From: Thermodesulfovibrio sp.
GTDB taxonomy: Bacteria; Nitrospirota; Thermodesulfovibrionia; Thermodesulfovibrionales; Thermodesulfovibrionaceae
Direction of reading: 5' to 3'
DNA length: 55,655 bases
Assembly (NCBI GenBank): GCA_020725335.1
Contig: DYFF01000005.1
Coordinates: 1 to 55,655, forward strand
Below the pieces are notes generated by a model that saw only the letters and a list, made by a program, of their open reading frames with translations, searched no databases and was not told the DNA's origin. This document shows, piece after piece, positions 5,371 to 55,273 of the stretch (position 1 is the first letter of the stretch; every line of letters begins with the position of its first letter). A program made the translations under genes and the position numbers.

Positions 5371-6177
5371 ATGATAAAAAATACTTTTATACTACTTGAT
5401 GGAATAGGTGAAAAAAGGGAAAGAAGGCTCTGGAAAGAGGGAATTCTTACTTGGGAAGACTTTTTCATTTTCAAAGAGGTTTTGGATATTGATTATGAAA
5501 AAAAGAAAATTTATGATGATTTCCTTCATAAAGCTTTTGAAGCTCTTTACTGCAAAAATTGCTGTTTTTTCTCAGAAAGTTTGAAAAAAAGAGAACACTG
5601 GCGGCTTTTTGATGAATTTTTAAATGATGCAGTATGTCTTGACATTGAAACCAATGGTCTTATTCCTGAAAAAGGTGGATATGTCACGGTCGTAGGGCTT
5701 TATTCCTTAAATGGATACAAGGCATTGGTGCGAGGAGAAGATTTATCAGAAGAGTCACTTCAAGAAGCTCTTTATAGTCATAAGTATCTAATTACCTTTT
5801 ACGGAAGCATCTTTGATATACCCTTTTTAAAGAAAGAATTTCCTAATTTAAAAATTGAGCATATCCCTCATTTTGATCTATTTTTTGCAGGCAAGAGATT
5901 GGGAATTCAAGGTGGACTCAAGAAGCTTGAAACTCTTTTTCTCATTGAAAGAGAAGATGAGCTTAAGGGATTGAACGGTTATGATGCAGTAAAATTCTGG
6001 AAGGCTTACTTAAATGGAAATACAGAGAGTTTGGAACTTTTAATTTCCTACAATAAAGCTGATACAGAGAATTTATTTAAGATTGCTAAAATTTTTTACG
6101 ATATGTTACGCACTCAGGCAGGAATAGAAGAGTTCATGGGTAATGGAACAAAAAGAACTACTCAAAAAGTTTCTTAA
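5371..6177 (+). CDS. RNase H-like (YprB-type) exonuclease domain protein
   Basis: 268 residues. After a helical N-terminus of about 80 residues comes an exonuclease-like RNase H fold: CLDIETNGL supplies the first acidic pair (DxE), FDIPFLKKEFP is exo-II-like, HFDLFFAGKR follows, and the final YNKADTENL gives the last Asp. This matches the RNase_H_2/YprB family, whose members are predicted 3'-5' nucleases with poorly known substrates. The C-terminus overlaps xerD by 35 nt, so the two genes are probably expressed together. The precise role is unknown. Confidence 0.75.
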   Translation: MIKNTFILLDGIGEKRERRLWKEGILTWEDFFIFKEVLDIDYEKKKIYDDFLHKAFEALYCKNCCFFSESLKKREHWRLFDEFLNDAVCLDIETNGLIPEKGGYVTVVGLYSLNGYKALVRGEDLSEESLQEALYSHKYLITFYGSIFDIPFLKKEFPNLKIEHIPHFDLFFAGKRLGIQGGLKKLETLFLIEREDELKGLNGYDAVKFWKAYLNGNTESLELLISYNKADTENLFKIAKIFYDMLRTQAGIEEFMGNGTKRTTQKVS

Positions 6178-7029: not shown

Positions 7030-7461
7030 TTAAATCTTTTCTATTAGGTATTTGATTTTCTTAGCGGTAATATTCTTTTTCTTAAGTAAGGGCAGGATTT
7101 CAATAAATGCTTCTTTTACCCATTCTGAATAAGCTTTTACTTCTTCCTCTGTAAACTCACTTCTGCGTAAAGGGCTATATTCGGCAGTTGTTCTTCTATC
7201 ATAAAGATTTCCCAGATATCTTCCTATTTTAGGAGAAATAGCACCTGATTTAATAAAGTGCATACTAAACATGATTTTTACTCCCTCATGAGATTTTGGT
7301 TCAATGCCAACACTTGCAAGCAGAGCTTTTACAGCATGTTCCAGAGCAAAATAGAGATTTACTGTTGCATTCCCCCATCTTTGTCCTTTTTTGTCATCTA
7401 AAAAAGCTTCAAGTTTTTCTCTTGCGATTTCAATTTCAGCTAATGCTAATTCCTTTCCCAC
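7030..7461 (-). CDS. HEPN domain protein, partner of a nucleotidyltransferase
   Basis: 143 residues, all-helical, with a GTG start at 7459-7461. The pattern WGNATVNLYFALEHAVKALL followed by LYDRRTTAEYS matches HEPN proteins of the R-x(3)-[AD]-[ED]-Y type. HEPN proteins are frequently toxins or RNases paired with a minimal nucleotidyltransferase that AMPylates or otherwise restrains them. The upstream MNT-type gene overlaps by 16 nt, as expected for such a module. The 3' end is two bases from the convergent xerD stop. Target and toxicity cannot be read from sequence. Confidence 0.75.
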   Translation of the reverse strand: MGKELALAEIEIAREKLEAFLDDKKGQRWGNATVNLYFALEHAVKALLASVGIEPKSHEGVKIMFSMHFIKSGAISPKIGRYLGNLYDRRTTAEYSPLRRSEFTEEEVKAYSEWVKEAFIEILPLLKKKNITAKKIKYLIEKI

Positions 7462-13702: not shown

Positions 13703-15493
13703 ATGTCAAAATTATATCTTTCAGGAAATGAGGCAATTGCCTACGGTTTAATTCAAGCTGGAGTGAGATTTATCTCGGGATATCCTGGCACACCTTCAAG
13801 TGAAATTATCCCTGCAGCACAGCAAGTAGTTAAAAATAAGAAAATTAAAGCATTTATTGACTGGGCAATAAATGAAAAAGTTGCTTATGAGATTGCTTGT
13901 TCTGTAGGTCTTACAGGGATTAGTTCTGCTGTGACAATGAAGCAAGTAGGACTTAATGTGGCGATGGACCCTTTTATGAACTCTGCCTATGTGGGAACAA
14001 ACTCTGCTATGGTTGTTGTAAGCGTAGATGATCCTGGACCACATTCCTCTCAAACTGAGCAAGACAGCCGCCTTTTTTCACTGGCCGCCAAAATACCTGT
14101 GCTTGACCCTTCAACAGTTCAAGAAGCCTATGAATTTTCAAAAAGGGCTGTTGAACTAAGCAGAAAATACTCTATTCCAGTGATGCTTAGGAGTACAACG
14201 AGAGTTTCCCACGGAAGGGCTGATGTAGAGATTAAGGAAGATTTTGTAAATGAACCCCTGAAAGCTCAATTTAAAACCCTGAAAGACTGGGACAAAAAAC
14301 TATGGCGATATGCAGCTACTCCCCGCCAAAGACTTATGCTTCACGCTGCTTTGAATGAAAAGATTGCTGAAATAGAGAGAGAAAATGAATTAAGGTTCTT
14401 TTTCAAAGGTGATATTCTTATTGTCTCAAGTGGCGCAGTTTTTTCATATCTCTATGAGCTGATTGAAGAATATGGGTTACAAAACAGGGTTACTCTGGCT
14501 AAGGCAGACATGCCCTATCCACTTAAAAAGTTGGATTTTTCAGGCTACAGTAGGGTAATTAGCGTAGAGGAATCCATGCCTGTCATAGAACTACAACTAT
14601 GCACAGAAGGAAGAAGAAATGGGATAGTGCCAAAGCAGGGAGAACTCATTCCTGAGGTTTGTGAAGAAATCTTAGAAAAAATAGGCTTAATAAAGCGGAG
14701 CAAAACAATAACTGTTCCTCCCCTAAAAAGACCATCTCTCTGTCCAGGCTGTGCTCACAGAATTGCTCTTTATGCAGTAAAGAGAGTTTTCGGCAAAAAA
14801 GCTATTTATGCAGGAGACATAGGCTGTTATACCCTTGCCCTTAACTTTGGAGTTACAGACACAGTTTTATGCATGGGAGCAAGTTTATCCTTTGGTTTTG
14901 GCTTTAAAAAAGCCTTTCAGTTAGCTGACACTGAGCAGGATGTGTTATCAATAATAGGAGATTCCACCTTTTTTCACACAGGAATTCAGCCACTTATTGA
15001 TTCAGTGCATTACAGAGTGCCTTTTTTAACAGTCATACTGGATAACAAAACAGTGGCAATGACAGGAAATCAGAAAACCCTATCTGACGAGCTGAGCTCT
15101 TCAGGTGAACAAGTAAAACCAATAGAAATTGAGAATGTTATAAGGGGCTTAGGAGTTAATTTTGTGCAAACTGTTGATCCTTATAATTTTGAAGCTTCAG
15201 TAAAAGTTTTAAAGGAAGCAAAGAAGTTTCTCAAGGAAAAAAAAGAGCCGGCAGTGATAGTTTTCAGACACCTCTGTATAAATACAAAGGAAGGATTAAA
15301 TTCTAATCCAAGGTATAATGTGGCTTTAGCGAAAGAATTATGCAAAGGCTGTAAACTCTGTATCACTGAGTTTGAATGTCCTGCGATACTGTTTAATGAA
15401 GAGGAAAACAAAGCAGAGATTGACTATACACTCTGTATAGGATGCGGATGCTGTGTTCATGTATGCTTGACAAAAGCGATTCGTTTGATATAA
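13703..15493 (+). CDS. iorA: Indolepyruvate:ferredoxin oxidoreductase, alpha subunit
   Basis: 596 residues. The N-terminal pyrimidine domain (GNEAIAYGLIQAGVRFISGYPGTPSSEI) and a transketolase-like domain II are followed by the TPP-binding domain (CPGCAHR, GDIGCYTL, GDSTFFHTG, ILDNKTVAMTG). A C-terminal two-cluster ferredoxin region follows (CKGCKLC and CIGCGCCVHVC). IorAB oxidises aryl pyruvates from aromatic amino acids to aryl-acetyl-CoA and reduces ferredoxin. The beta subunit is not the next gene but lies two genes downstream, separated by a hicBA pair. The first Fe-S group has wider Cys spacing (CITEFEC) than standard ferredoxins, as is common in IorA. Confidence 0.93.
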   Translation: MSKLYLSGNEAIAYGLIQAGVRFISGYPGTPSSEIIPAAQQVVKNKKIKAFIDWAINEKVAYEIACSVGLTGISSAVTMKQVGLNVAMDPFMNSAYVGTNSAMVVVSVDDPGPHSSQTEQDSRLFSLAAKIPVLDPSTVQEAYEFSKRAVELSRKYSIPVMLRSTTRVSHGRADVEIKEDFVNEPLKAQFKTLKDWDKKLWRYAATPRQRLMLHAALNEKIAEIERENELRFFFKGDILIVSSGAVFSYLYELIEEYGLQNRVTLAKADMPYPLKKLDFSGYSRVISVEESMPVIELQLCTEGRRNGIVPKQGELIPEVCEEILEKIGLIKRSKTITVPPLKRPSLCPGCAHRIALYAVKRVFGKKAIYAGDIGCYTLALNFGVTDTVLCMGASLSFGFGFKKAFQLADTEQDVLSIIGDSTFFHTGIQPLIDSVHYRVPFLTVILDNKTVAMTGNQKTLSDELSSSGEQVKPIEIENVIRGLGVNFVQTVDPYNFEASVKVLKEAKKFLKEKKEPAVIVFRHLCINTKEGLNSNPRYNVALAKELCKGCKLCITEFECPAILFNEEENKAEIDYTLCIGCGCCVHVCLTKAIRLI

Positions 15494-15994: not shown

Positions 15995-16434
15995 AACTCG
16001 TAATCCTTGGTAAAGGTGGACAGGGAGTTATATTTTTTTCAAGAGCAATTGCCCAGGCAGCAATCAACAAGGGATTTTCTGTTCGCTCAACAGAGATAAA
16101 GGGAATGGCTAAAAAAGGTGGTGCTGTTGAGATACAGATGAAAATTGGTGAAGGCATGAGTGGAATAGTAAGAAGAGGCACAGCCGATATGGTTATAGTT
16201 TTAAGTGAAGATTTACTGCCCTATGCAAAAACTTTCGGAGGAAATATCTTTACTTTTACAGATAATGAAATACAAACAGCCAGGGAAAGTGTGCCTGCAA
16301 GATATGTTAATACCTTTTTACTTGGTATTTTTGTAAAGAAGACAAAATTTTTTCAATGTGAAGATTTCACAAATACTCTTGATGAGGAAAACAAAAAATC
16401 ATTCATAAAGGGGTGTGAGTATGTTCAATCCTGA
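15991..16434 (+). CDS. iorB: Indolepyruvate:ferredoxin oxidoreductase, beta subunit, short
   Basis: 147 residues of the 2-oxoacid oxidoreductase gamma/IorB fold: LGKGGQGVIFFSRAIAQAA, then STEIKGMAKKGGAVEIQMKIG. This subunit completes IorA, two genes upstream. IorB proteins are usually nearer 190-200 residues, so the C-terminal part is short. Whether this is natural or a result of the nearby rearrangement is unclear. The 3' end overlaps the start of the phenylacetate-CoA ligase remnant, showing that the original operon ran iorA ... iorB-paaK. Confidence 0.85.
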   Translation: MKLVILGKGGQGVIFFSRAIAQAAINKGFSVRSTEIKGMAKKGGAVEIQMKIGEGMSGIVRRGTADMVIVLSEDLLPYAKTFGGNIFTFTDNEIQTARESVPARYVNTFLLGIFVKKTKFFQCEDFTNTLDEENKKSFIKGCEYVQS

Positions 16435-16945
16435 AAAAGAAACAATGTCAAGAGAAGAGATTGAAAAATTACAGCTTACAGGTTTAAGAAAAACTCTCAG
16501 ATTTCTTAAAAACTCTCGTTCAAAACTCAAGGAAAAATATAGAGACATAGAGCCTGAAGATATCCAAAGCCTTGATGATCTTAAAAATCTTCCCTTTGTA
16601 ACAAAGGATGACTTAAGAGACTACTATCCTTTTGAGCACATTGCAGTTGACCCCTCAGAATGCGCAAGAATGCACATGAGTTCAGGCACCACAGGTATAC
16701 CTGTAATCAACGCTATGACAAAGAATGACATTGCCCAATGGGGAGAGATAATGGCAAGATGCTTGGCTACCGCTAGGCTAACTGAAAAAGATAAGATTCA
16801 GATAATGCCTTCCTTTGGACTTTTCAATGGTGGATTTGGTTTTCATTATGGAGCTGAATGTCTCGGCTGTTTTATTGTGCCCGCAGGTGCTGGTAGGTCA
16901 CTTATGCAGCTTAAGCTTATAAAAGACCTTGGAGTTACAGCTTAA
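16421..16945 (+). pseudogene. paaK: Phenylacetate-CoA ligase, 3'-truncated
   Basis: 174 residues from the ATG at 16421 (a GTG two codons upstream is also possible). The N-terminal part of an adenylate-forming CoA ligase of the PaaK type is intact, including FVTKDDLRDYYPF and the ATP-binding block SSGTTGIPV, then GLFNGGFGFHYGAE and IVPAGAGRS. The frame stops at 16943-16945 just after IKDLGVTA, where PaaK proteins run on for about 250 more residues. The later adenylation motifs are missing, so it cannot be a working ligase. Just past this point the sequence matches a different family, indicating a deletion junction near 16930-16950. Confidence 0.85.
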
Positions 16946-18161: not shown

Positions 18162-18971
18162 ATGAAAAAATTTTTAGGTATCCTGTTTATTATTCTTATT
18201 TTTGCAAGTATGGCCTTTTCAGCAGAAAAAACAATACTTATTTCTACAACAACATCTGTTGAAAATTCAGGATTGTTAAGTTATATTTTGCCCCATTTTG
18301 AAAAAAAGACGGGCATTAAGGTTTACGTTGTTGCGAGAGGAACTGGAGCAGCCATTGAGATGGGGAAAAGAGGAGATGCTGATTTGGTTTTTGTTCATGC
18401 AAAGGAGCTTGAACTTGAAGCTTTAAAACAGGGTTATTTTATAAACCGTCATGATGTCTGTTACAATGATTTTATTGTTGTAGGACCTAAAAATGACCCA
18501 GCAGGTATTAAGGGATTGAAAAGGGCTTCAGAGGCATTTAAAAAGATAGCAAATTCTGGAAGTCTCTTTGTTTCAAGGGCTGATAAATCAGGAACACATA
18601 TGAAGGAGTTAAAACTCTGGGAATTTGCAGGCATTAATCCAAAAGAGCAAAGCTGGTATTTAGAGGCAGGACAGGGGATGGAAAAAACTTTAAGAATCTC
18701 AAATGAAAAGCAAGCCTATACACTTACAGACAGAGGAACATGGCTTGCTGTGAAACACAGGCTTGAGGATCTTACCTTGCTTTTTGAAGGTGACCCTATT
18801 CTTTTTAATCAGTATGGAGTTATGGCAGTTAATCCTCAGAGGCATAAACATGTAAGATACAAAGAGGCAATGCAACTTATAAACTGGCTTATCTCAAAAG
18901 AGGGACAAAGTTTGATAGGTTCATTTAAAGATAAAAATGGGAATCAGCTTTTTATTCCCAATGCGAAATAA
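18162..18971 (+). CDS. tupA: Tungstate ABC transporter, substrate-binding protein
   Basis: 269 residues with a signal peptide ending near MAFSAEK. The mature N-terminus has the TupA oxyanion motif STTTS (about residues 27-31). Then follow GDADLVFVHAKELE, NDFIVVGPKNDPAGI, SRADKSGTHMKELKLW and YTLTDRGTWLA, all standard TupA blocks. It delivers tungstate to TupBC for tungsten-pterin enzymes such as aldehyde:ferredoxin oxidoreductases and some formate dehydrogenases. An AGGAGG sits before the ATG, and the permease follows 3 nt after the stop. Confidence 0.85.
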   Translation: MKKFLGILFIILIFASMAFSAEKTILISTTTSVENSGLLSYILPHFEKKTGIKVYVVARGTGAAIEMGKRGDADLVFVHAKELELEALKQGYFINRHDVCYNDFIVVGPKNDPAGIKGLKRASEAFKKIANSGSLFVSRADKSGTHMKELKLWEFAGINPKEQSWYLEAGQGMEKTLRISNEKQAYTLTDRGTWLAVKHRLEDLTLLFEGDPILFNQYGVMAVNPQRHKHVRYKEAMQLINWLISKEGQSLIGSFKDKNGNQLFIPNAK

Positions 18972-24516: not shown

Positions 24517-25961
24517 ATTTCAAAACGGTTTTTAACATTGTCGGTATAATCCTTATCATTTTGTCAATTTTTATGCTTGTGCCTATTGGTGTTTCAATTA
24601 TTAATAAATCTTCAGATTTATCAGCTATAATCTTTTCCTTTTTATTCACCTTTTTCTCTGGAACAGTGATGCTTGCTATAACTAAGCAATATAGGAACGA
24701 AGACCTCAAGTATAGAGAATCCTTTATGACAGTAACTCTTTCCTGGTTACTTGTAACTTTTTTTGGTTCACTGCCATATATTTTTACAGGTTCTGTGAGT
24801 TCTTTTACCGATGCCTTTTTTGAGGCAATGTCAGGTTTTACAACCACAGGTGCAAGCATTTTCGCAGATGTAGAGAGTTTACCTGCAGGACTGCTTTTCT
24901 GGAGAAGCATGACACAGTGGATAGGTGGAATGGGAATAATTGTTTTTGCTCTTGCTGTATTGCCTATAATTGGAACAGGTGGTATGCAGCTTTTTAAAGC
25001 AGAGGTTCCCGAAATAAGTGTTGATAAACTAAGACCTAGAATTATTGATACTGCAAAGGCATTATGGTTGATTTATGCTGGACTTACATTGCTAATAGTG
25101 CTTCTTTATATGATAGTAGGTATGGATTTATATGACGCTGTATGTCATGCATTTACTACAATTTCAACGGGTGGATTTTCAACAAAAAATGCAAGTATTG
25201 GTTATTTTGATAGCCCTTTCCTGGATTATGCTGTAAGCATTGGAATGTTTCTTGGAGGAGTTAACTTTGCCCTTTACTTTTATTTTATGCGAGGAAATTT
25301 AAATATATTTTTTAAAAACGCTGAGTTCCGATTTTATTTTTTCGTAATTTTTATAACTATATTATTAGTAACCCTTGATCTTTGGCTTTATAATTATAAG
25401 TCTGCTTTTGATTCTTTTAGATATTCAGTTTTTCAGGTTGTTTCAATAATTACTACAACAGGATATGCTACTGCTGACTATCTGAAATGGAGTTCTTTCT
25501 GTCAGTTAGTTTTATTAATTATAATGTTTTTCGGAGGAATGATAGGCTCAACTGGCGGTGGAATCAAACAGGTAAGAGTTTATCTTATGATAAAACAAAT
25601 ATTTAGAGAGTTTTATCAGCTAATACATCCGAGGGCTGTGTTAGCTTTAAAACTTGATGATAAGTTCCTTACCAAAGAAACTCTTGGTAGTATCTGGGGC
25701 TTTGTTTTTCTTGCCTTGTTTTTATGTGCTGTTGCCAGTATAGCTATGACTGCTACAGGGCTTGATATCATAACTTCTATTTCTACTGTGATATCTGCTA
25801 TGAACAATGTAGGACCTGCTCTGGGAGAAGCTGGGCCTGCTGGTAATTATTCATCTATACCGCCTCTGGGTAAATGGATACTAATTTTCTGTATGCTCGC
25901 AGGAAGGCTTGAGTATTATACTGTTCTTATACTTTTAACCCCTGCTTTTTGGAAGAGATAG
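24513..25961 (+). CDS. trkH: Trk potassium uptake protein TrkH
   Basis: 482 residues, about ten membrane helices arranged as four pore repeats. The selectivity-filter Gly residues are visible in FTTTGASI, ISTGGFSTK, ITTTGYATADY and MNNVGPALG. It forms the potassium-conducting channel regulated by TrkA, with which its start overlaps by 4 nt. It ends two bases from the convergent stop of the SDH-type protease. Confidence 0.95.
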   Translation: MNFKTVFNIVGIILIILSIFMLVPIGVSIINKSSDLSAIIFSFLFTFFSGTVMLAITKQYRNEDLKYRESFMTVTLSWLLVTFFGSLPYIFTGSVSSFTDAFFEAMSGFTTTGASIFADVESLPAGLLFWRSMTQWIGGMGIIVFALAVLPIIGTGGMQLFKAEVPEISVDKLRPRIIDTAKALWLIYAGLTLLIVLLYMIVGMDLYDAVCHAFTTISTGGFSTKNASIGYFDSPFLDYAVSIGMFLGGVNFALYFYFMRGNLNIFFKNAEFRFYFFVIFITILLVTLDLWLYNYKSAFDSFRYSVFQVVSIITTTGYATADYLKWSSFCQLVLLIIMFFGGMIGSTGGGIKQVRVYLMIKQIFREFYQLIHPRAVLALKLDDKFLTKETLGSIWGFVFLALFLCAVASIAMTATGLDIITSISTVISAMNNVGPALGEAGPAGNYSSIPPLGKWILIFCMLAGRLEYYTVLILLTPAFWKR

Positions 25962-26853: not shown

Positions 26854-27276
26854 ATGCCTAAACTTATTATCAAATGGCAAAGACTCGTTTATGACAGCAC
26901 TACTTGTCCAAGATGTAGTAGTACAGAAATCGAGATTGAAAAAGCATTTTTAAAGCTTAAAGAAGCTTTAAAACATCTTGATATAGAAGTTATTTTAGAA
27001 AAATATGCATTAAATCAAGATGAATTTAAGAAAAACCCTTTGGCTTCGAATTCGATATTAATTAATAACAAACCTCTTGAGGACTGGCTTGATGCAGAGA
27101 CAGGAAGGTCTCGATGTTGCAGTGTTTGTGGGGATGAGGATTGTAGAACCATTCAGATAAAAGGGCGTATATACGAAACAATTCCTGAAAATCTTATAAT
27201 AAAAGCGAGTTTAATAGCAGCATCTGAATTAATTTCTGCAAATAAAGGCCATCAGTTCTTAAGCGTAAAAAAATAG
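26854..27276 (+). CDS. DUF2703 family protein
   Basis: 140 residues. N-terminal beta strand then CPRC (about residues 19-22), a thioredoxin-like helix and strand pattern, NSILINNKPLEDWL, and the motif CCSVCGDEDCRTI, which together match DUF2703 proteins. The two Cys pairs suggest metal or thiol chemistry, but no function is established. The gene stands alone, and a parS-like palindrome lies 11 nt after its stop. Confidence 0.75.
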   Translation: MPKLIIKWQRLVYDSTTCPRCSSTEIEIEKAFLKLKEALKHLDIEVILEKYALNQDEFKKNPLASNSILINNKPLEDWLDAETGRSRCCSVCGDEDCRTIQIKGRIYETIPENLIIKASLIAASELISANKGHQFLSVKK

Positions 27277-27287
27277 GTTTTCTTGAA

Positions 27288-27303
27288 TGTTCCACGTGGA
27301 ACA
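27288..27303 (+). other. parS-like ParB binding site 1
   Basis: The 16 bp TGTTCCACGTGGAACA is a perfect palindrome and identical to the strong parS sequence known from pseudomonads, and matches the bacterial consensus TGTTnCACGTGnAACA. The symmetry extends three bases further on each side (27285-27306, 22 bp). It lies in the intergenic region between the DUF2703 gene and dapL. ParB loads at such sites to organise origin segregation. Confidence 0.85.
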
Positions 27304-27395
27304 TTCCAATTTAAAACAACATAATTAATCTAAATTTGGAAATATTAGCTCAGTTTTTGTAAACTGAATAAATATTAATTAGCAGGAGGATAAAA

Positions 27396-28559
27396 ATGCA
27401 GATTCAATATGCCGAAAGAATAAGAACTCTTCCGCCCTATCTTTTTGCTGCTATTGACCAAATGAAAAGAGAAGCCCTTGCAAAGGGAGCTGATTTAATT
27501 GATCTAAGCATAGGCGACCCAGATATCCCTACTCCAAAACACATAGTAGAGGCAATGAAAAAGGCGGTTGAGAATCCGGAACATCACCGATATCCAAGTT
27601 ATGAAGGAATGCTAAGCTACAGGCAAGCAGTTGCGAGATGGTATAAAAGGAGATTTAATGTAGAACTTGACCCTGAAAAAGAGGTTCTCTCTCTAATTGG
27701 TTCAAAGGAGGGGATTGGTCACATACCTTTAGCATTTATAGACCCTGGAGATATTGTTTTAGTCCCCTCACCTGGTTATCCTGTTTATCCCGTTGGAACA
27801 AAGTTTGCAGGAGGTATTCCTTATTTTATGCCTCTTAAGGAAGAAAACTACTTTTTACCTGATCTTAAATCCATTCCTAAAGACATATGCAAGAAGGCAA
27901 AGCTAATGTTTATTAATTATCCGAATAATCCAACTTCAGCAGATGCAACATCTGATTTTTATAGGGAAGTTATTGATTTTGCAAATAAATATAATATTAT
28001 TGTATGTCACGATGCTGCCTATTCAGAGGTTTACTATGAGGAGAGACCTTTAAGTTTTATGGAAATTGAAGGCGCTAAGGACGTAGGTATAGAGTTTCAC
28101 TCTCTTTCTAAAACATACAACATGACAGGATGGAGAATAGGATATGCTGTGGGGAACAGAGAGATTCTTGCAGGCTTAGGAAAAGTAAAGACCAATCTTG
28201 ACTCTGGTGTTTTTCAGGCAATTCAGGAGGCAAGTATAGTTGCTCTTGATACAGATGATAGTATTCTTAAAGATATAAGGGATACATTTAAGGATAGAAG
28301 AGATATTCTTTATGATGGGCTAAGATCAAGAGGCTTTGAGGTTAGAAAACCTAATGCTACCTTCTATCTTTGGGTGAAAGTTCCACGTGGAACAAATTCT
28401 ATAGACTTTGTTGGTAAGCTTCTTAAGGAGGCAGAGGTTCTCTGTACGCCGGGAGTTGGTTTTGGTGAGCATGGTGAGGGATATATAAGATTTGCTCTAA
28501 CTCAATCTAAGGAGAGAATTAAGGAAGCAGTGGAAAGAATAGGGAGGCTTAGCCTATGA
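27396..28559 (+). CDS. dapL: LL-diaminopimelate aminotransferase
   Basis: 387 residues, fold-type I aminotransferase. PLP-binding blocks are DLSIGDPDIPTP, GSKEGIGHIPLAFIDPGD, NYPNNPTSA, CHDAAYSEVYYEE and FHSLSKTYNMTGWRIGY with the Schiff-base Lys. DapL converts tetrahydrodipicolinate directly to LL-diaminopimelate for lysine and peptidoglycan. AGGAGG precedes the ATG. The 3' end overlaps the YjbQ gene (ATGA). A second parS-like site is embedded in the reading frame, encoding VPRGT. Confidence 0.9.
   Translation: MQIQYAERIRTLPPYLFAAIDQMKREALAKGADLIDLSIGDPDIPTPKHIVEAMKKAVENPEHHRYPSYEGMLSYRQAVARWYKRRFNVELDPEKEVLSLIGSKEGIGHIPLAFIDPGDIVLVPSPGYPVYPVGTKFAGGIPYFMPLKEENYFLPDLKSIPKDICKKAKLMFINYPNNPTSADATSDFYREVIDFANKYNIIVCHDAAYSEVYYEERPLSFMEIEGAKDVGIEFHSLSKTYNMTGWRIGYAVGNREILAGLGKVKTNLDSGVFQAIQEASIVALDTDDSILKDIRDTFKDRRDILYDGLRSRGFEVRKPNATFYLWVKVPRGTNSIDFVGKLLKEAEVLCTPGVGFGEHGEGYIRFALTQSKERIKEAVERIGRLSL
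28379..28394 (+). other. parS-like ParB binding site 2, inside dapL
   Basis: AGTTCCACGTGGAACA shares 15 of 16 bases with site 1 and contains the perfect 14-bp palindrome GTTCCACGTGGAAC. It lies within codons of dapL, about 1.09 kb from site 1. Location in coding sequence is normal for parS sites. Confidence 0.8.
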
Positions 28560-54442: not shown

Positions 54443-55273
54443 TTAATGAGTCAGAGATGAATTACATTCCTTTATGAAGGTATGAATCTCAATAAGCGAT
54501 TTAATTAGGTTTTTGAAATTCCTAAGAGGTATCATATTAGGTCCATCGCAGAGGGCTTTTTCAGGCTCTGGATGGACCTCAAAAAACAATCCATCTACAC
54601 CGCAGGCAACTGCTGCTCTGCTTAGGTAAGGGACAAATTCTCTCTGCCCTGATGAGCATGTCCCAGCACCTCCTGGAAGTTGAACAGAATGAGTTGCATC
54701 AAAAACTACAGGCACTCCCATTGAACGTATGATAGGAAAACTTCGGAAATCAACAACAAGATTATTATATCCAAAACTTGTTCCTCTCTCTGTAATCATT
54801 AGCTTTTCATTACCTGTTGATTTAAATTTTTCAACTATATTCTGCACATCCCATGGTGCAAGAAATTGACCCTTCTTTACATTCACAGGTTTTCCTGTTT
54901 TTCCTGCCTCAACAATCATGTCTGTTTGTCGGCAGAGAAATGCAGGAATTTGTATTACATCAAGAATGTCCTGAGCGATTTTAATCTCCTCTACTGAATG
55001 GACATCACTTAAAATAGGAATATTAAATTTTTCTCTTACTTTTTGTAGTATCTCAAGTCCTTTGTGTATGCCTGGTCCTCTGTAAGATTTAATAGAGGAA
55101 CGATTTGCTTTATCGTAGGAGGATTTAAAGATAATTGGTAGATTAAGACTTTCTGAGATTTCCTTAAGAGTCTCAGCTGTTTTAAATACTACATCTTCAG
55201 TTTCAATTACACAGGGGCCAGCTATGAGAAATAGCTGACCCCTTTTTATTTCAATATCACCAAATTTAAACAC
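54443..55273 (-). CDS. kdsA: 3-deoxy-8-phosphooctulonate synthase (KDO8P synthase)
   Basis: 276 residues with a GTG start at 55271-55273. It condenses arabinose 5-phosphate and PEP to KDO 8-phosphate for lipopolysaccharide. Blocks: IAGPCVIE, FKSSYDKANRSS, SDVHSVEEI, IQIPAFLCRQTD, NVKKGQFLAPWD, and DATHSVQLPGG. The Cys in IAGPC is the metal ligand of the metal-dependent subclass (the metal-independent E. coli type has Asn there). Its start overlaps the stop of the upstream gene by one base. Confidence 0.93.
   Translation of the reverse strand: MFKFGDIEIKRGQLFLIAGPCVIETEDVVFKTAETLKEISESLNLPIIFKSSYDKANRSSIKSYRGPGIHKGLEILQKVREKFNIPILSDVHSVEEIKIAQDILDVIQIPAFLCRQTDMIVEAGKTGKPVNVKKGQFLAPWDVQNIVEKFKSTGNEKLMITERGTSFGYNNLVVDFRSFPIIRSMGVPVVFDATHSVQLPGGAGTCSSGQREFVPYLSRAAVACGVDGLFFEVHPEPEKALCDGPNMIPLRNFKNLIKSLIEIHTFIKECNSSLTH

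Follow-up and report, generated by a model that had tools for sequence, protein, structure and literature searches.

Two putative parS sites, one within dapL, in the chromosome of Thermodesulfovibrio

Two 16-bp palindromes that lie 1.1 kb apart in a Thermodesulfovibrio genome, one of them formed by codons of dapL, are almost certainly chromosomal (centromere-like) parS sites of the standard ParABS type, with binding by ParB predicted from sequence. Several features by which parS sites are recognized are present: a palindrome that fits the consensus, a cognate ParB with its ParA, the specificity residues of that ParB, few and clustered copies, and conservation at the level of DNA. The window that we analyzed is a stretch of 55,655 nucleotides and comprises all of contig C5 of the assembly. 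The features on which the argument rests are:

26854..27276, + strand: DUF2703 gene upstream of site 1 (PF10865, E 2.8e-38)
27288..27303, no strand: parS site 1, perfect 16-bp palindrome TGTTCCACGTGGAACA
27396..28559, + strand: dapL, encoding LL-diaminopimelate aminotransferase, host of site 2 (TIGR03540, 663 bits against a cut-off of 593)
28379..28394, no strand: parS site 2, AGTTCCACGTGGAACA, in dapL codons AAA GTT CCA CGT GGA ACA
C9:22305-22829: ParB (TIGR00180, 189 bits), parA adjacent

Sequence, copy number and partner proteins

Site 1 matches TGTTCCACGTGGAACA at every base, and this is the sequence of two established strong parS sites of Pseudomonas aeruginosa, parS2 and parS3 (PMC4368675); the initial annotation had called it identical to known strong parS sites. 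An extended form of the site, GAATGTTCCACGTGGAACATTC, is a perfect palindrome of 22 bp at 27285-27306. Site 1 is intergenic, starting 12 nt past the stop codon of the DUF2703 gene and ending 92 nt ahead of dapL, and has counterparts at the homologous position in three relatives (G008, G005 and G007). Site 2 has a single mismatch to TGTTCCACGTGGAACA, at the outermost base, which leaves both sites with a fully palindromic core of 14 bp, GTTCCACGTGGAAC. The annotation was also accurate in placing both sequences exactly where they occur, in counting one differing base in site 2 and in stating that one site is inside dapL; this is site 2, which there encodes K-VPRGT.

Chance occurrence had been judged very low, and our counts agree. 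The window contains three matches with up to three mismatches versus 0.09 expected from shuffles; the third, at 1565, has three mismatches and is unremarkable, leaving no further copy in the window, as had been claimed. When the whole assembly (1,804,241 bases in 21 contigs, 99.91% complete) was searched allowing one mismatch, only sites 1 and 2 were found, whereas base composition (65% A+T) predicts approximately 0.0002 exact and 0.01 one-mismatch matches in 1.8 Mb; a reversed control pattern had no match in this genome. The sites are therefore not spread over the genome, and on these counts they are very probably its only two parS. The one match with two mismatches, at C3:2619 (TGTTCCACCTGTAACA), was not counted as a further parS, since its non-palindromic sequence is found again in relatives (G014, G009 and G001).

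A chromosomal ParB is present. Exactly one ParB-family protein exceeded the threshold of our profile search in this genome; parA directly precedes its gene, and SMC is also encoded (780 bits). Its N-terminal motif GERRWRA is of the CTP-binding type, and the nearest solved structures are those of ParB, Spo0J and Noc. The recognition region, GKDRATIAN...LTVGHAK, includes Q162, G170, K171, R173, N178, Y179, K184 and G201 in Caulobacter numbering and deviates from the listed parS contacts at positions 172 (D for S) and 204 (K for R) (PMC7383237). R173 and G201 are absolutely conserved in ParB, whereas Noc, the nucleoid-occlusion protein, has Q173 and R201 (PMC7383237).

These residues bear on whether the palindromes could instead be Noc-binding sites (NBS). 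Although much of the protein matches the Noc model (score 245.8, under the cut-off of 315) and position 184 is a lysine, it carries R173 and G201, together with Y179 and K184, and is not of the Q/K/K/R type that Noc represents. Moreover, the NBS is TATTTCCCGGGAAATA (PMC7383237) and both sites have the parS bases instead, while no second ParB-family protein in this genome reached the search threshold. We consider the probability that these are NBS to be close to nil.

By analogy with known ParABS systems, a single ParB dimer, encoded on C9, would recognize each parS site through its helix-turn-helix, close as a CTP-dependent clamp and slide onto the neighboring kilobases, over dapL and its neighbors. 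ParB would then be expected to recruit and load SMC, and after replication ParA would draw apart the origin region coated with ParB.

Conservation of site 2 within dapL

The six codons at site 2 are letter-identical in 10 Thermodesulfovibrio genomes, our own and nine relatives. In an alignment of dapL from 13 members of the genus and 17 relatives from the order, one of which (L127) aligned badly, the invariant run that the 10 share at site 2 covers six codons (19 nt) and is the longest in the gene, the runner-up being two codons (8 nt). Among the 247 amino-acid-invariant positions other than Met and Trp, 31 are codon-invariant (approximately 13%) with the six site codons included, and approximately 10% without the site. 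Three members of the genus lack the in-gene site, having VPKET (G014), VPNG-K (G002) and VPQKI (G001) in its place; in these genomes dapL lies elsewhere in the chromosome and a parS is kept after paaK, a gene for phenylacetate-CoA ligase.

If the enzyme needed V-P-R-G-T, the palindrome might simply follow from codon choice as a by-product of protein constraint, and it is true that VP is widely conserved in DapL and that V-P-x-G-F is common in the order. However, all 10 genomes agree in the six codons down to the synonymous third positions of V, P, R, G and T, against codon invariance of 10–13% elsewhere, and the relatives from the order mostly have S, K, T, D or E for R and F or Y for T, with VPRGT itself absent from those aligned. 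Together with the other residues found in the three genus members without the site, this makes an origin in protein constraint exceedingly unlikely. Since six codons are invariant where codon identity is otherwise rare, and since the residues have changed where the site was lost, the conserved entity is the DNA word and not the protein. Judged from the alignment, the DNA of site 2 is conserved more strongly than constraint on the protein or the background would explain. Our literature search on synonymous constraint found nothing relevant.

We also observed that in one relative (G008, L227 12497-12925) the upstream parS occupies final codons in a DUF2703-like gene and again encodes V-P-R-G-T.

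The hairpin at site 1 and the paaK junction

Site 1 and the parS that follow paaK in three relatives lie at the apex of inverted repeats:

27277..27317, + strand: imperfect hairpin immediately past the DUF2703 stop codon, with site 1 at its apex (-13 kcal/mol, z -3.0)
L181 (G002) 5800-5870: parS at apex of a long inverted repeat, directly 3' of paaK
L160 (G012) 18785-18860: parS at apex of a long inverted repeat, directly 3' of paaK
L211 (G014) 7176-7250: parS at apex of a long inverted repeat, directly 3' of paaK

The repeats of the relatives, which contain 13 (G002), 10 (G012) and 8 (G014) extra perfectly paired positions, fold at -21 to -27 kcal/mol (z -5.4 to -6.6) and are flanked by convergent genes. 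Their arms differ with compensatory changes, several pairs being altered on both sides between genomes. The extension in the window is shorter than in these three relatives, G008 and G006 have hardly any, and site 2 has none. From fold and gene order, a shared bidirectional terminator at the paaK-parS junction is plausible, and the hairpin in the window is possibly a transcript-end element. A literature search on terminator hairpins returned nothing relevant.

Could site 1 then be primarily a transcription-terminator hairpin and not a parS? Its position just past a stop codon, its predicted fold and the extended arms of the relatives, with pairs changed on both sides, would suit such a role. 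However, the central 14–16 bases remain an exact parS while the arms vary, there is no U tract after the hairpin, and arm extension is scarce or missing at other copies of the site. A terminator in place of a parS is thus very unlikely, and we continue to read site 1 as a parS.

Two further observations concern paaK in the window. The gene (16415-16945) seems truncated, with a match to residues 1-174 of the 425-aa G002 protein at 92% identity. It is followed by a stretch of about 6 kb (16.94-23.1 kb) that includes genes for a PAS hybrid histidine kinase and a probable ABC transporter and that has no counterpart at the same place in G008 and G013.

Origin proximity, displaced parAB and comparison with known systems

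The initial annotation suggested that the sites mark a region close to the origin of replication. This holds for relatives with complete chromosomes; for the genome under study it is likely, judging from the positions of blocks of the window in G002, most of which map within approximately 140 kb of the origin. Three relatives are assembled as single contigs. In G009, dnaA is at 22 and the sites are at 25,446 and 29,018 (25–29 kb away); in G012, dnaA is at 1,564,561 and the sites are at 1,549,219 and 1,553,813 (11–15 kb); and in G002, dnaA is at 14,006 and the site at 25,831 (12 kb). Since gene-orientation effects swamp raw GC skew, a clear origin emerged only when per-gene third-position skew was fitted with gene orientation as covariate. 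The fitted origins, at approximately 20 kb in G009 (703 genes), 1.56 Mb in G012 and 20 kb in G002, are within approximately 20 kb of the sites; the modal bootstrap coincided with the fitted region in each, with a minority of bootstraps elsewhere.

In G001, a single contig carries both dnaA and the site, at a distance of 10 kb. In G013, the dapL contig starts on its left with the sequence expected to follow directly on the right end of the dnaA contig; in this arrangement dnaA and the dapL site would be approximately 36 kb apart, and a similar contig-end argument would give approximately 9 kb in G004, where dnaA is on another contig. In our own genome dnaA is on C1, and positions within the contigs place it at least approximately 60 kb from the window; because dnaA and the window are on different contigs, origin proximity is here inferred from the relatives and not from a dnaA distance. 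The exception is G014, whose only exact site (C1:747205) is 261 kb from dnaA in a three-contig assembly with unclear skew. This site travels with an iorA-iorB-paaK block, raising a question of rearrangement or assembly. In the stretches scanned, relaxed DnaA boxes never formed a cluster of at least four in 400 bp, and oriC was therefore not pinpointed by boxes.

The position relative to parAB, which could not be seen by the earlier reader, is different: parAB lies away from the sites. parB is 470 kb from dnaA in G009, 485 kb in G012 and 114 kb in G002. In other families of the order, by comparison, a site and parB share a contig in 24 genomes, and the distance between the two is at most 2.4 kb in 18 of these and at most 15 kb in 22. 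Since parB is far from dnaA in the genus and usually beside parS in the other families, the partition operon has been separated from the centromere. As read from gene positions, most members of the genus have kept the centromere close to the origin while parAB became separated. The site itself is widespread: with up to two mismatches, it is present in 15 of 16 genomes of the genus and in 93 of 101 relatives, 94 of which encode ParB. Our literature search found no treatment of parS in Thermodesulfovibrio.

In G009 (C1:470221) and G012 (C1:1079309), parAB is separated from dnaA and parS by about a quarter of the chromosome and so departs from its usual place in the ori domain, to which parS has kept. 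A DAHP synthase gene lies at the right end of the window (54443-55273), and its homologue adjoins parB in both genomes.

This distribution also bears on whether the palindromes are sites for a local transcription regulator of dapL or a neighbor. Site 1 is approximately 90 bp upstream of dapL, the next gene in our genome, as such a regulator might require. However, three relatives (G002, G001 and G014) have the site downstream of paaK, where two genes converge, and away from dapL; the same 16-mer adjoins parB in the other families; and site 2 is deep within a gene. We therefore assign a local regulator a minute probability and retain parS as our reading of both sites.

How does this arrangement compare with known systems? 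P. aeruginosa shares the identical 16-mer, the clustering of parS near oriC and the location of some parS within genes (PMC4368675), but it has ten putative parS where we find two with parAB not close. Bacillus subtilis and Caulobacter crescentus likewise have a 16-bp palindrome with a CACGTG center (consensus TGTTTCAC-GTGAAACA; PMC7383237), an origin-proximal cluster, ParB with R173 and G201, and SMC; the differences are TTCC/GGAA here for TTTC/GAAA, the presence of only two sites and the displacement of parAB in the genus. The other families of the order have the same 16-mer in one or two copies and a ParB, but their parS is usually at most 2.4 kb from parB, whereas that of Thermodesulfovibrio is beside paaK or dapL.

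Since both intragenic parS and the exact 16-mer are known from Pseudomonas (PMC4368675), sites of this kind are not new. The informative and mildly surprising parts are the codon-locked conservation and the displaced parAB. We tentatively suggest, as a possibility that we do not favor over its alternatives, that parS in this genus is dual-use DNA: the site in dapL would fix codons and amino acids, the other would serve as both ParB loader and transcript-end hairpin, and parAB would have left parS behind and shifted away from the origin by as much as a quarter of the chromosome.

At the level of sequence, these findings would demonstrate that a bacterial centromere can override the choice of codons, and probably of residues, in a biosynthetic gene. 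Natural experiments are available within the genus, with relatives that keep the in-gene site and relatives that lack it and have dapL at another place, and with a parAB operon that has wandered 114–485 kb from dnaA while parS stayed.
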